Source: Shimia thalassica (GTDB taxonomy: Bacteria; Pseudomonadota; Alphaproteobacteria; Rhodobacterales; Rhodobacteraceae). From it: a DNA stretch of 64,000 nt. The translations under genes and the position numbers were made by a program. Every line of letters starts with the position of its first letter. Positions within the stretch are counted from its first letter, which is position 1. Where the stretch lies: contig NZ_CYTW01000001.1 of NCBI RefSeq assembly GCF_001458215.1, positions 1,984,001 through 2,048,000 on the forward strand, in the 5' to 3' direction. Positions 23,327-28,982 of this stretch are shown here, in pieces. The notes beneath the pieces were generated by a model that was not told where the DNA came from, did not search any database, and was given only the letters and a program-made list of their open reading frames with translations.

Positions 23327-23986
23327 TCAGGATACGGGTTTCAGGCGATCCGGTTCATTACTTTCCAGATAGGCCTCCTGCTCGGGAGTGAGATCAATCT
23401 GGTCATAGCCCGTCACCATCGGTTTCACATGCTCTTTGAACCCGTGCCCCACGGTGAGCAGATAAACATGCACCACGATGAACGCGCCAATCACATAGGC
23501 TGACAGAAGATGAAGGTTGGCGATCAGGGTAATGGCCACAACCGAGTCGCCCGACGACCAGAGATTATAGGTCAGATAGAGCAATCCCGTGATCCAGATG
23601 GCCGGAAAAATGAACCACTTCAACACAAAGTAAGTCGCGGCCTGAAGTGGATTGTGTTTGCGCCAGAACATTTTTTCGTAGGGATGTTCTTCGCCCTGGA
23701 ATACGCCATAGGCATAATAACGTGCCATCGACAGCATCCCTTCGATCTTTGGGATAAACTGCTTCCAGGTGCCCGTCGTGAACAGCCAGAAGGTTGCGAA
23801 TATCCAAAGCGCCAACAAGCCCAGAGCCGCCAAAGTGTGAAGCATCACGGCTGGACCAAAGGGAATCGCGTCATGCACCCCGTTCAGCCCCATCCCCGTG
23901 ATCATCAAGATCAGGATCAAGAGAACCTGCATCCAGTGCCAAAGGCGTTCAAACAGCGGATAAACTTTTACAATACGTTTAGCCAT
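23327..23986 (-). CDS. cytochrome b/b6-domain membrane protein (NiFe-hydrogenase cyt b type)
   Basis: This membrane protein of about 219 residues has four hydrophobic segments and histidines placed for b-heme ligation: 'RLWHWMQVLLILILMITG', 'AVMLHTLAALGLLALW', 'LIANLHLLSAYVIGAFIVVHVYLLTVGHGFKEH'. It belongs to the di-heme cytochrome b group that links the quinone pool to periplasmic oxidoreductases. I chose the ATG at 23986 because GGAG lies six bases upstream. The gene then overlaps the end of the octaheme cytochrome gene by eight bases, so they are coupled. It should pass electrons between quinol and the octaheme protein (inference). Confidence 0.87.
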   Translation of the reverse strand: MAKRIVKVYPLFERLWHWMQVLLILILMITGMGLNGVHDAIPFGPAVMLHTLAALGLLALWIFATFWLFTTGTWKQFIPKIEGMLSMARYYAYGVFQGEEHPYEKMFWRKHNPLQAATYFVLKWFIFPAIWITGLLYLTYNLWSSGDSVVAITLIANLHLLSAYVIGAFIVVHVYLLTVGHGFKEHVKPMVTGYDQIDLTPEQEAYLESNEPDRLKPVS

Positions 23987-25592
23987 GATGGTCTCCATTT
24001 GAAGTTCGCGAGAAGATCCGCAGCACTGCGTGGCCCATCACGCCAAAGAAGGACATCAGCACAATCACCTTGCCCAACAGACCAACCCAGCCGTTCGGGT
24101 CTGTGCCGGGCATGAACACGCCTGCTACATCGACAAGCCGCCCGTTTTCCTGATGGCATTCGGCGCATTCAACTGCGTTTTCCGCGGGCGCCACCATGTG
24201 GGTGATCGGCCAGTACATATATGTGTCGACAAAATCGAACTCACCGGAATAGGGCTGGTTCGCGGCCTTCATACCGGCATCAATTGCCTTGCCCCAGTCA
24301 AAGTTGGTCCAGAACGCCGTGTCTGTCGTGGGGCCCCACACATGTGTGTAAACAAGGTTTTCATTCACCTTATCATAGGCTTGCCGCCCTTCCATTCGCT
24401 TGAACGGCCAGATGCGCGATGTCCCGTCCGCCCGGTCGCCATGGATGACGTTCACCTCAACGGTTTTGGTCGGATCAATCTTGCGGTCAATCGTGGTGTA
24501 TTCGACCTGCCCATCAAACCAGGCATAATAAGGCGTTGCGTCTTCCTGATAATCAAAGTCGCCCTTGGTAGACATATATGTGTGCAGATGCTGGCCGGTT
24601 GAGGAGACGTAGTTGTCTTCCTTGATCGGTTTGCCATCCTCGTCCAAACGGCCCGCTGTGGACCAATCCCAGAATGATTTTGTCGGGACGCCACCACGCG
24701 CAAATTCAGGGATGTGACAGCTTTGGCAGGCCAAAGTGTCGGAATGATCGTTCAGCTTCAAACCTTTGATATTGGCAGGGTGCGGTTCATTCCCATGACA
24801 GGATTGGCAGGATGCGGCATGACGCTCTTCGCCGGGTTTGCCCGTGCCATGCGGATCAGACGCCAGCACATTATAGCGCGATCCCGCCCATTGGTGGCGA
24901 TCACTGACATGGCAATCGGAACAGACCATGTTCTCGCCTTCAGGCGACATATGGACATCCACATCCAAAGATGGCTCGTACAAAACAGAAGACAGGTCAC
25001 CATGTTTGACGTTGTCACCGCCGCCGCCATAAAAGTGACAATTGCCACAGTTGTCACGATCCGGCATGCCCACACTCTGGGCTGCCTTGGTCAGATCAAC
25101 GGCCCATGCTTTGGCGCCGGTAATGGTTTTACCCTTGGCTTCCAAGGGCGGGTGCCCTGCCGCTGTGGCCAGTTTCGTGTATTGATCAGACGTATCGTGG
25201 CACACCAGACAATCCTTGGCGGTTGCCGCCTGCGGTGGCGGTTGGCTCATGTCTTCCCAGCCATAGCCCGCGTGACATGAGGTGCACCGTGGTTCGTTTC
25301 CGGCAACACTTCCGCAAAAGGCGTTGATCACGTTTTTCTTGCCCAAAACCTGACCGGTTTCGGGGTGTTCATATTCCCATGTGAAGTGAATGGAATGCAT
25401 GAACTGATTGTCTGCCTCTGTGTGGCAGGACAGGCAGGCCTCGGTCACTTCGGGGCCCGATTTGAAGTCCTTCTGAAGGATCGGAAACTTCGAATGGTCA
25501 GCTGTCGATGAACCGGTACTTTCTTCGGCCACGGCCAAACCCGCCACACCCAAAGCAAGGACAACACCGGTCAGGGTCCTTTTCAAAATCAT
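23979..25592 (-). CDS. octaheme c-type cytochrome, tetrathionate reductase (OTR) family
   Basis: This 537-residue protein has a signal peptide and exactly eight CxxCH heme sites (starting at residues 53, 103, 128, 182, 224, 262, 289 and 476). The long non-heme stretch before the eighth and the C-terminal membrane anchor (about 502-527) fit the octaheme tetrathionate reductase family. The Shewanella enzyme reduces tetrathionate and, in vitro, nitrite and hydroxylamine, so the true substrate of this family is open. No site is CxxCK. A strong GGGAGGAG precedes the ATG. The gene is co-transcribed with cytochrome b and divergent from the fused dehalogenase across a shared FNR-type site. Confidence 0.9.
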   Translation of the reverse strand: MILKRTLTGVVLALGVAGLAVAEESTGSSTADHSKFPILQKDFKSGPEVTEACLSCHTEADNQFMHSIHFTWEYEHPETGQVLGKKNVINAFCGSVAGNEPRCTSCHAGYGWEDMSQPPPQAATAKDCLVCHDTSDQYTKLATAAGHPPLEAKGKTITGAKAWAVDLTKAAQSVGMPDRDNCGNCHFYGGGGDNVKHGDLSSVLYEPSLDVDVHMSPEGENMVCSDCHVSDRHQWAGSRYNVLASDPHGTGKPGEERHAASCQSCHGNEPHPANIKGLKLNDHSDTLACQSCHIPEFARGGVPTKSFWDWSTAGRLDEDGKPIKEDNYVSSTGQHLHTYMSTKGDFDYQEDATPYYAWFDGQVEYTTIDRKIDPTKTVEVNVIHGDRADGTSRIWPFKRMEGRQAYDKVNENLVYTHVWGPTTDTAFWTNFDWGKAIDAGMKAANQPYSGEFDFVDTYMYWPITHMVAPAENAVECAECHQENGRLVDVAGVFMPGTDPNGWVGLLGKVIVLMSFFGVMGHAVLRIFSRTSNGDHHG

Positions 25593-25679: not shown

Positions 25680-25784
25680 ACTTAAAATATATAAAAATTG
25701 GGATATTTAATTTCGCGCGCCACTTCTGCGAATGGCTTTTCAAAACAAGATAACATGTTTAGGATTTCCACAGGGAGAAACGGC

Positions 25785-28700
25785 ATGACACAACTATTCT
25801 CAGACAAGACGCGCCCCGTTCATTTGGGGCCCTATCCATTAGAGCGCCTTGCCCGTCTGAGTGAGCCCCCGTTGTCTGCGCCGCCCCCTATGAACAGGCT
25901 GGATTTCCATCGCCTTGAAACACCCCATTCGCTTGTTAACGCGATGGGTGAGTATCAGGCGATGATGGATGCCATACGCGAAGGCCTTGTCAATTCGGTG
26001 ACGTCGGAAATTCCGCAAGACAAAACGGAAAGGTCCAATCATCTCAAGGCCTTCGGATACTTTAATGATGCTTCCATGGTTGGCATTGGCACGCTTGAAA
26101 AGGGCATGCATCTGGCCGCCGCCCTGCGCAATCCGGATATTGACCGTCTCGCAAAAGACCTGCGTACCCGTCAGACAAAAACACTGGCTGCTGGCATCGA
26201 TATGATCATGGCGGACCTCAAAGAATCTGTCGAGGCCACGCCGACAAACATCGACAGCCACACCCATGTGATCGTTTATCTTTACGAGCATAACCGCACA
26301 CCGGACATGTCCGAACCCGGTGCCGAATGGCTTGAGGATGCGCAGGACCACCGTGCGTGCCTGCGTGCCACGGAAACATCATGTGTGATCGCCAACTATC
26401 TCAGATTGCTGGGATATTCGGCGCGTTCTCATTCCAGAACAACCAGCGATATTGACCTGAACAAAGCGGCCGTTGCGGCGGGGCTGGCCTATGTTGAAAA
26501 TGGGCAGCTGGTCGCCCCCTATCTTGGCACGGGGTTCGGTGTTGCAGCGGTGACAACCGATATGGCGCTGGCCACCGATGCGGCGTTGTCACCCGAACAA
26601 CCCTATCTGAAAACCCATGGCCCCACATGGTGGGTGGGCAAGCATTCCGCCAAAAGCGCACTGAACCGCGATCCCTATCGCAAGCGTCGTTATGTAGATG
26701 GCGCACAGTCCTTTGAGCGTCTGAAACGCGTGGATACCCCCACCACCTATATAGACGAGCCGAACGTCGCACGCGTGCCAAAGCGCGCGGACATGTTCGC
26801 CCGTGCCCAGTTCGGGGATATGGGAAAGATCAACCAAAAGAACGCAACGGGCGGATACTATGTTCGCAAATCTGCGCCCTCGATGGCGCAGCGGCGCGCA
26901 CTTGGGGCGTTTGTGCTTTTGCAGGATGGTGATCCCTCGCAAGGGCCCCGTCCGGATGATGCCCGCCGAAATGCGGAAAACGTCAAGGCAGCCAGCTATT
27001 TTCTGGGGGTGGATGCTGTCGGGATTTCGCGCTGTCCGGATTGGGCATGGTACAGCCATGATGCGGCGGGCGCAGAGATAAATCCCCCCCATGATCAGGC
27101 CATTTCCATGATCATCGATCAGGGGTTCGAAACCATGGAAGGCGCAAGCGGAGACGACTGGATTTCCGTTGCCCAGTCCATGCGCGCCTATTTGCGGTTT
27201 TCACTGTTGGGCGGCGTCATTGCCAAACAGATCCGCAATCTCGGGTACAAGGCCAAAGCCCATAGCGTGATGGACGGTGAAGTGCTTCAGCCCCCGCTTT
27301 TGCTGCTTTCCGGTCTGGGCGAAGTCAGCCGCATCGGTGAGGTCATTCTGAACCCTTATCTTGGCCCGCGTTTGAAATCCGGTGTCGTGACCACCGACAT
27401 GCCAATGGCCCATGACAAGCCGATTGATTTCGGTCTTCAGACGTTTTGTGAAAGCTGCAACAAATGCGCCCGCGAGTGCCCCTCGGGCGCCATCACGGCC
27501 GGTCCGAAACTGATGTTTAACGGGTATGAAATCTGGAAGTCGGACAGCCAGAAATGCGCCACCTATCGCATTGGAACCGAAGGCGGCGCCATGTGCGGCC
27601 GGTGCATGAAAACCTGCCCATGGAACCTTGAAGGACTGTTTTCCGAGGCACCTGCCCGCTGGGCCGCAATGCACATTCCGTCAGCCGCGCCAATCTTGGC
27701 CAAATGGGATGACAAGCTCAAACACGGAAGTCTGAACCCCGTCAAAAAGTGGTGGTGGGACCTCGAGATACAATCTGACGGCCACTATGCCCCGACGGAC
27801 AAACCCGTGAACGCGCGGGATCTTCAACCTGATCTGGACCTGAAATACGAAGACCAGACCCTCGCGGTTTATCCCGCCCCGATTGCCCCGCATCCCTGGC
27901 CTTATCCTTTCCCGATGGACCGCGAAGCCGGTATTCGCGCCTATGAGGCGATGATCCCAGCCGATCGATACAAAGCCGCGCTGGCCGCCGGAGACCGCAG
28001 CCATGTCCATGTCTACAAAAACGACGGCGACGCCCCCGTTTTGCGTGTCGAAGTGGCCAAGGTTGATAAAATGACATCTGGGGTCACAAAATACGAATTC
28101 CGCGCTCTGGATGGCAAAGACCTTCCCAAGTGGAGCGCAGGCGCGCACCTTGATATCCTCGTGGCACCGGAATTCCTGCGCCAGTATTCCATGTCCGGCA
28201 ATCCATCCGACACCAGCCGTTATCAAATTGGTGTCTTGCGCGAAGACGCGGGCCGGGGTGGATCGAAACTGATGCACCGGATCTTCAATGAGGGCCGCAA
28301 GGTCTTTATTTCAAAGCCAATTAACCATTTCGAGCTGGTTGAAGATGCCACCAAGACCTTTCTGATGGGCGGCGGTATCGGTATCACCCCGATGATTGCC
28401 TTTGCGCATCGCCTGCATGCGCTTGGGGCTGATTTTGAGTTTCATTATTCGGCCAGCGTCAAGGATGACGCGGGATTTCTGGAAGACCTTCCAAACATGC
28501 CGTGGGCCGACAGGGTGCATCTGCATTTTTCCGATCAGGGATCGCGTGCAGATCTTGACCAAGTGTTGTCAGGATATCAAACCGGTTGGCATGTCTATAC
28601 CTGTGGCCCCGACAGATATATGGACGGCGTTATGGACGCCGCGACCCGACAAGGGTTTCCCGAAGAGGCACGGCATCTGGAGTATTTCAGCGTGCCCGAG

Positions 28701-28982
28701 CAACCCGACTATGAAAACCACGCCTTTACACTTCGGCTAAAGGACGGTCGGGAACTCATTGTTCCGGAAGAGAAAACCGCCAGTGATGTATTGTTGGAGA
28801 ACGGCATTCATGTGGATGTAAAATGTTCCGACGGCATCTGTGGGGTCTGCAAATGTCAGGTTCTTTCAGGCGAAGTAGAGCACCGCGATTTTGTTCTCTC
28901 CGAGAAACAGCGCCAGTCGTCCATGATCCTGTGTCAGTCGCGCGCGGCAGAACCCGAAGGTATCCTTGAAATCAACCTGTGA
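25785..28982 (+). CDS. self-sufficient reductive dehalogenase: RdhA fused to flavin reductase and [2Fe-2S] ferredoxin
   Basis: This 1065-residue cytoplasmic protein lacks a Tat signal. Residues ~1-700 form a corrinoid-type reductive dehalogenase module with two [4Fe-4S] motifs: CESCNKCARECP (Cys 555, 558, 561, 565) and the RdhA-typical CX12CX2CX3CP (Cys 591, 604, 607, 611). Residues ~735-960 form a phthalate-dioxygenase-reductase-like unit with a flavin-binding RQYSMSG and NAD(P)-binding MGGGIGITPM. The last ~90 residues are a plant-type ferredoxin (CSDGICGVC...ILC). This architecture matches the catabolic NAD(P)H-driven dehalogenases BhbA and NpRdhA, which act on halophenols. Tyr423 lies where the NpRdhA proton donor (Tyr426) is expected, unverified by alignment. 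A GGGAG precedes the ATG. The substrate is unknown; brominated phenols are plausible in the sea. Confidence 0.9.
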   Translation: MTQLFSDKTRPVHLGPYPLERLARLSEPPLSAPPPMNRLDFHRLETPHSLVNAMGEYQAMMDAIREGLVNSVTSEIPQDKTERSNHLKAFGYFNDASMVGIGTLEKGMHLAAALRNPDIDRLAKDLRTRQTKTLAAGIDMIMADLKESVEATPTNIDSHTHVIVYLYEHNRTPDMSEPGAEWLEDAQDHRACLRATETSCVIANYLRLLGYSARSHSRTTSDIDLNKAAVAAGLAYVENGQLVAPYLGTGFGVAAVTTDMALATDAALSPEQPYLKTHGPTWWVGKHSAKSALNRDPYRKRRYVDGAQSFERLKRVDTPTTYIDEPNVARVPKRADMFARAQFGDMGKINQKNATGGYYVRKSAPSMAQRRALGAFVLLQDGDPSQGPRPDDARRNAENVKAASYFLGVDAVGISRCPDWAWYSHDAAGAEINPPHDQAISMIIDQGFETMEGASGDDWISVAQSMRAYLRFSLLGGVIAKQIRNLGYKAKAHSVMDGEVLQPPLLLLSGLGEVSRIGEVILNPYLGPRLKSGVVTTDMPMAHDKPIDFGLQTFCESCNKCARECPSGAITAGPKLMFNGYEIWKSDSQKCATYRIGTEGGAMCGRCMKTCPWNLEGLFSEAPARWAAMHIPSAAPILAKWDDKLKHGSLNPVKKWWWDLEIQSDGHYAPTDKPVNARDLQPDLDLKYEDQTLAVYPAPIAPHPWPYPFPMDREAGIRAYEAMIPADRYKAALAAGDRSHVHVYKNDGDAPVLRVEVAKVDKMTSGVTKYEFRALDGKDLPKWSAGAHLDILVAPEFLRQYSMSGNPSDTSRYQIGVLREDAGRGGSKLMHRIFNEGRKVFISKPINHFELVEDATKTFLMGGGIGITPMIAFAHRLHALGADFEFHYSASVKDDAGFLEDLPNMPWADRVHLHFSDQGSRADLDQVLSGYQTGWHVYTCGPDRYMDGVMDAATRQGFPEEARHLEYFSVPEQPDYENHAFTLRLKDGRELIVPEEKTASDVLLENGIHVDVKCSDGICGVCKCQVLSGEVEHRDFVLSEKQRQSSMILCQSRAAEPEGILEINL

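Follow-up and report, generated by a model that had tools for sequence, protein, structure and literature searches.

Reductive dehalogenases (RDases) of the fused type have already been described, and publications cover both their biochemistry and their occurrence across the Roseobacter clade (PMC10463259, PMC13101508). According to PMC10463259, purified JtRdhA of Jhaorihella thermophila (WP_104007082) couples NADPH to the debromination and deiodination of ortho-halophenols; the chloro compounds tested in that work were not turned over, and its authors left the bromo/iodo versus chloro preference open for the class as a whole. The same source reports that JtRdhA works in air, that it keeps the NpRdhA active-site residues F291, S422, M423, Y426, K488 and R552, and that an insertion specific to the fused enzymes folds over the active site. 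Ros_A3X954 of Roseobacter sp. MED193 debrominates 2,6-dibromophenol and was oxygen-sensitive in its authors' hands (PMC13101508); as these two reports describe them, the characterised catabolic RDases differ in oxygen tolerance, JtRdhA being active in air and the unfused Ros_A3X954 not. Putative bhbA homologues are described as widely distributed in the Roseobacter clade (PMC13101508), and a prevalence of 7.8% has been given for RDase genes in Alphaproteobacteria (PMC6299228).

We analysed a 64,000-nucleotide stretch of the Shimia thalassica genome (the whole of it is called the window below) that carries a gene of this type, here rdhA; among open-licence PMC papers we noticed none on the window protein or its natural substrate. 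Judged from its sequence, the product is in all likelihood a cytoplasmic, self-sufficient, catabolic-type RDase acting on ortho-bromo- and iodophenols with NAD(P)H, a B12-dependent single-chain enzyme that would very probably remove bromine or iodine from compounds resembling phenol.

The rdhA gene and the domains of its product

The features discussed here and below are the following, in window coordinates:

23327-25592, minus strand: octaheme tetrathionate-reductase-family cytochrome c (eight CxxCH, TIGR04315 592 bits) and cytochrome b561
25772..25777, plus strand: Shine-Dalgarno-like AGGGAG, seven bases 5' of the ATG (from the sequence)
25785..28982, plus strand: rdhA-PDOR fusion gene, 1065 aa, ATG start, intact chain (ORF and translation, family and structure-sequence searches)
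26025..26579, plus strand: vestigial duplicate of the cobalamin-binding core, about residues 81-265 (second, weaker in-frame TIGR02486 match, E 9.8e-11)
26100..26255, plus strand: segment of about 52 residues (106-157), about 10 in NpRdhA (structure-sequence alignment)
27090..27713, plus strand: catalytic RdhA core, about residues 436-643 (TIGR02486 match)
27189..27191, plus strand: Tyr469, equivalent to NpRdhA Tyr426, proton donor by homology (97/97 rows)
27375..27377, plus strand: Lys531, equivalent to NpRdhA Lys488 (97/97 rows)
27447..27620, plus strand: two [4Fe-4S] motifs, Cys555/558/561/565 and Cys591/604/607/611 (Fer4-type Pfam matches, alignment)
27567..27569, plus strand: Arg595, equivalent to NpRdhA Arg552 (97/97 rows)
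28038..28970, plus strand: phthalate-dioxygenase-reductase-like flavin/NAD(P)H/[2Fe-2S] module, residues 752-1062 (2PIA, E 3.4e-47)
28746..28946, plus strand: C-terminal [2Fe-2S] ferredoxin domain Fer2, residues 988-1054 (Pfam)

An in-frame TTG upstream of the ATG would give a reading of 1094 aa, and the 1065 aa ATG form is preferred because AGGGAG precedes the ATG and because two homologues, BhbA (L093) and the Ruegeria sp. TM1040 protein (L094), are annotated as starting at the same place. A promoter and terminator scan found four promoter-like sites, against 2.3 (sd 1.4) in shuffled sequence, and four terminator-like sites, against 4.4; neither count was used as evidence.

The family, domain order and cluster ligands of the product are clear, as are its active-site residues. 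It scores 201 bits against the RDH model TIGR02486 (cut-off 160.35) in two stretches; in the genome search one stretch scored 160.7 bits, and the window rdhA was the only gene in its genome to pass the cut-off. The Dehalogenase family PF13486 had no match in the genome, and the control for that search matched nowhere either, so no weight was given to this result. Among solved structures the nearest in sequence is NpRdhA (4RAS; best stretch residues 158-740, E 6.6e-158), and those nearest to the C-terminal third are of cytochrome P450 fusions and of phthalate dioxygenase reductase (2PIA); the E values of 4RAS and 2PIA exclude chance similarity. The N-terminal duplicate is also visible in an alignment of residues 7-265 with the second half of the NpRdhA piece, which holds the core (25% identity, E 2e-17). 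Several flavin/NAD reductase models, for example BenC, match the C-terminal part below their cut-offs, and the flavin of this module is FMN by homology. An AlphaFold2 model, for which 20 close homologues were used, was of poor quality, with a mean pLDDT of 55.7.

Conservation was read from an alignment of 97 rows, which comprise the window protein, 91 loci (L002-L092; L001 is the window itself and was left out), NpRdhA residues 112-702 and four plasmid loci. Some loci are the same gene twice by coordinates (for example L003 and L019), so that the rows do not count as independent. All eight [4Fe-4S] cysteines, which a sequence-only reading of this DNA had placed at just these residues, are invariant in 97 of 97 rows. 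The C-terminal [2Fe-2S] domain that it had recognised in the 1065-residue chain is borne out by the Fer2 match and by Cys1014/1019/1022/1050, which are present in 96 of the 97 rows, that is, in every row covering that part. It had also seen no Tat signal, and the twin-arginine motif RRxF is indeed absent from the first 60 residues of the window protein and of all 97 rows, a count that concerns the motif only, most rows starting at the tblastn match and the fragmentary NpRdhA row being uninformative. Together the domain, cluster and alignment evidence upholds its central proposal, namely that a roseobacter here encodes a BhbA-type cytoplasmic RdhA with its own NAD(P)H reductase in the same chain. 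Counted with both ends, segment 106-157 is 54 residues long in 94 of the 96 fused rows and 53 in two, and it is probably the insertion that PMC10463259 describes for the fused enzymes.

Active site and proposed reaction

By alignment, the six NpRdhA residues named above correspond to F338, S465, M466, Y469, K531 and R595 of the window protein, which are identical in 97 of 97 rows. The sequence-only reading had asked whether the catalytic Tyr and Lys might be missing; Y469 and K531 are the predicted equivalents and both are present. Its own choice of pocket tyrosine, Tyr423, has to be corrected, since the counterpart of NpRdhA Tyr426 is Tyr469; Tyr423, though invariant in 20 aligned sequences, does not correspond to the catalytic tyrosine.

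By analogy with JtRdhA and NpRdhA, from which the cofactors, electron path and halogen preference of the window enzyme are inferred, NAD(P)H would reduce the FMN of the C-terminal reductase by hydride transfer, and electrons would then travel one by one, by way of the [2Fe-2S] domain and both [4Fe-4S] clusters, to base-off cob(II)alamin. Once reduced, the cobalt would take the halogen of an ortho-bromo- or iodophenol, and a proton would come, by homology, from Tyr469 aided by Lys531 and Arg595. We favour a dehalogenase because of the RDH score above cut-off, the full-length BhbA match, the NpRdhA E value, the six residues and the PDR-type module, and also because of a QueG score far below cut-off, a separate QueG in the genome, the presence of CobN and the kinetics of JtRdhA. 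The broader earlier claim that the organism can remove halogens is best narrowed to ortho-bromo- and iodophenolics, given that JtRdhA was inactive on the chlorinated compounds tested in PMC10463259; the bias towards bromo- and iodophenolics over chlorophenolics comes from that enzyme and may not carry over to this one.

Spread, neighbours and possible role

Relatives of rdhA are common. In genome contigs, 577 of 582 candidate stretches encode one, and the best 80 of the 577, which were kept, are 71-81% identical; the closest homologue among these 80 is that of Shimia biformata (81%), which by coordinates is a genome (G269) placed in another genus group. At E <= 1e-100, 36 of 100 genomes (the window's own included) have a match, nearly full length in 33 and over the RdhA part only in G057, G060 and G066. 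The gene is present in 22 of 25 genomes of the window's own genus group, its own included, to which Shimia abyssi, S. gijangensis and Shimia sp. Alg240-R146 belong by shared coordinates; in a wider draw of 295 family genomes, almost one per genus, 112 carry a match at E <= 1e-200, in a few cases with only part of the query covered. These counts point to B12-dependent, non-respiratory dehalogenation as a trait common among roseobacters. Two copies carry an in-frame stop and are decaying or misassembled: the sole match of one genome (G333:C1) and the second copy of another (G258:C12). Of 696 plasmid records with a match, 8 span 80% or more of the query. Five of these, at 69-71%, come from Ruegeria, Tritonibacter (two), Yoonia and Jannaschia, and the others are from Aminobacter (57%), Nitratireductor (49%) and the BhbA plasmid (48.5%).

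The neighbour comparison took in 79 of the 80 loci L013-L092 (the best 80 of 577 relatives), with script-called ORFs, some short loci, and names resting on one scanned representative per cluster. Within 400 bp upstream the commonest neighbours are a divergent LysR gene and a divergent LuxR-type regulator gene (7/69 each), followed by a co-directional FAA-hydrolase gene and a LamB/YcsF gene (4/69 each); within 400 bp downstream the commonest is a molybdopterin-dehydrogenase FAD-subunit gene (8/76). No neighbour cluster occurs in more than 11 of 79 loci over the whole flanks (about 8 kb), so no operon is generally conserved around rdhA. Five Shimia loci (L016, L019, L026, L027 and L038) have the co-directional FAA-hydrolase-family gene upstream, in four cases no more than 400 bp away, which may hint at a ring-cleavage route among them. 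The FAD-subunit gene lies downstream and co-directional in ten loci, mostly of Ruegeria (L014, L015, L021, L023, L024, L045, L060, L064, L079 and L091), in eight of them within 400 bp. In the window itself the neighbours named by family are the octaheme cytochrome, the cytochrome b561 and a histidine kinase.

An active dehalogenase could serve detoxification or salvage of brominated aromatics and not growth, which is compatible with the assignment above and which we regard as a real possibility, if somewhat the less probable one. It fits the scarcity of shared neighbours just given and the window, where no catabolic genes are linked to rdhA, in contrast to the genes for BhbA and for the Nitratireductor sp. 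OM-1 homologue, which have protocatechuate dioxygenase genes within about 5 kb (OM-1 also pobA). It fits, too, the genome, in which pobA was not found above cut-off (best E 1.2e-7, in a genome rated 100% complete), as it was not in three others of 26 rdhA carriers; a route from 4-hydroxybenzoate to protocatechuate via PobA is for that reason not supported here. With pobA in 22 of 26 carriers and 9 of 10 non-carriers (36 family genomes, own included), rdhA and pobA are not associated. Against a role limited to detoxification, JtRdhA enabled E. coli W to grow on 3-bromo-4-hydroxyphenylacetate (PMC10463259), some rdhA loci do have FAA-hydrolase, molybdopterin-dehydrogenase or transport-type neighbours, and catabolic genes may lie elsewhere in the genome, which has hmgA; the latter occurs in 35 of the 36 family genomes, own included, and is therefore uninformative on linkage with rdhA. 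Only as a speculation, and an improbable one, do we suggest that the roseobacter fused enzyme is a widespread, stand-alone housekeeping debrominase rather than a growth gene, salvaging or detoxifying brominated (or iodinated) aromatics, perhaps bromotyrosines entering the homogentisate route.

The cell may make its own B12, since its genome encodes a CobN cobaltochelatase above the curated cut-off (1577 versus 1235 bits). A link between rdhA and cobalamin synthesis was considered and not adopted: within the genus it looked promising, since the three genomes of 25 that have no rdhA match have no CobN match either, and in the wider draw the CobN/Mg-chelatase Pfam family is found in 253 of 295 genomes and rdhA in 112, which we do not take as linkage. 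At least five rdhA carriers (G029, G033, G051, G109 and G166) have no CobN/Mg-chelatase match. The three genus genomes without rdhA and CobN matches (G006, G020 and G022), which are perhaps one sub-lineage, have the octaheme cytochrome.

Cytochrome genes, QueG and the characterised enzymes

The octaheme and cytochrome b genes at 23327-25592 are divergent to rdhA, with 192 bp from their start to the rdhA ATG, an arrangement that might speak for a respiratory dehalogenase or for one wired to these cytochromes. We hold this to be very unlikely: the rdhA product has no twin-arginine motif and carries its own fused reductase, and the octaheme genes occur in 8 of 60 genomes searched (own included) and adjoin rdhA in the window's own genome only. 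In two other carriers (G001 and G031) the octaheme gene and rdhA are on different contigs, the remaining five have no rdhA match (E <= 1e-100), and of the neighbours called at 75 rdhA loci none corresponds to the cytochrome genes. A functional link between rdhA and the divergent octaheme cytochrome was accordingly dropped, adjacency elsewhere not having been found among the 60 genomes and 75 loci.

Least probable of all, and barely credible to us, is that the fold performs another B12-dependent reduction, QueG-like on epoxyqueuosine, and does not dehalogenate: RdhA and QueG do form one class of cobalamin enzymes (PMC10463259) and the window protein has a weak QueG stretch, but this scores 23.7 bits where the cut-off is 200, the same genome has a true QueG of its own at 432 bits, the best match between the two proteins is 74 residues at 23% (E 0.002), and the six named NpRdhA residues are kept. 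The sequence-only reading had likewise asked whether the protein would group with QueG, and the scores fall on the RdhA side (RDH 201 versus 160 bits, QueG 24 versus 200). A tree that includes QueG, Ros_A3X954 and NpRdhA is illustrative only, the first two branches being very long and the third long.

Among the characterised enzymes, Ros_A3X954 is, like the window protein, a roseobacter RDase without a Tat signal (PMC13101508). Its printed motifs fall in a short, unfused MED193 gene (L098), whereas the window gene is fused; over 250 positions the product of L098 and the window protein share 31% identity. MED193 carries two RDase genes, this one and a fused one (L062), and equating Ros_A3X954 with L062 (72% identical) was rejected on the position of the printed motifs. 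NpRdhA (Nitratireductor pacificus, PDB 4RAS) has an RdhA module about 43% identical to that of the window protein and the six named residues in common, and has about 10 residues where the window protein has segment 106-157. The sequence-only reading had given BhbA and NpRdhA the same architecture as the window protein; this stands for BhbA, which is alike over its full length (49% identical), and not for NpRdhA, which by its clade placement in Fisher et al. 2023 (PMC10463259) has no fused reductase domain.

BhbA itself (Comamonas sp. 7D-2 plasmid pBHB, WP_015585978, L093) is 49.3% identical over 1061 aligned positions (48.5-49.3% across comparisons) and keeps the named active-site and cluster residues; its gene is on a plasmid typed conjugative, beside protocatechuate 4,5-dioxygenase genes, and no such genes adjoin the window rdhA. 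JtRdhA, by its description in PMC10463259, resembles the window protein in coming from a marine bacterium and in its lack of a Tat signal, two [4Fe-4S] clusters, duplicated cobalamin domain, fused PDOR-like domain and active-site residues. The window gene is thus one more well-formed member of a family for which there is direct biochemistry.
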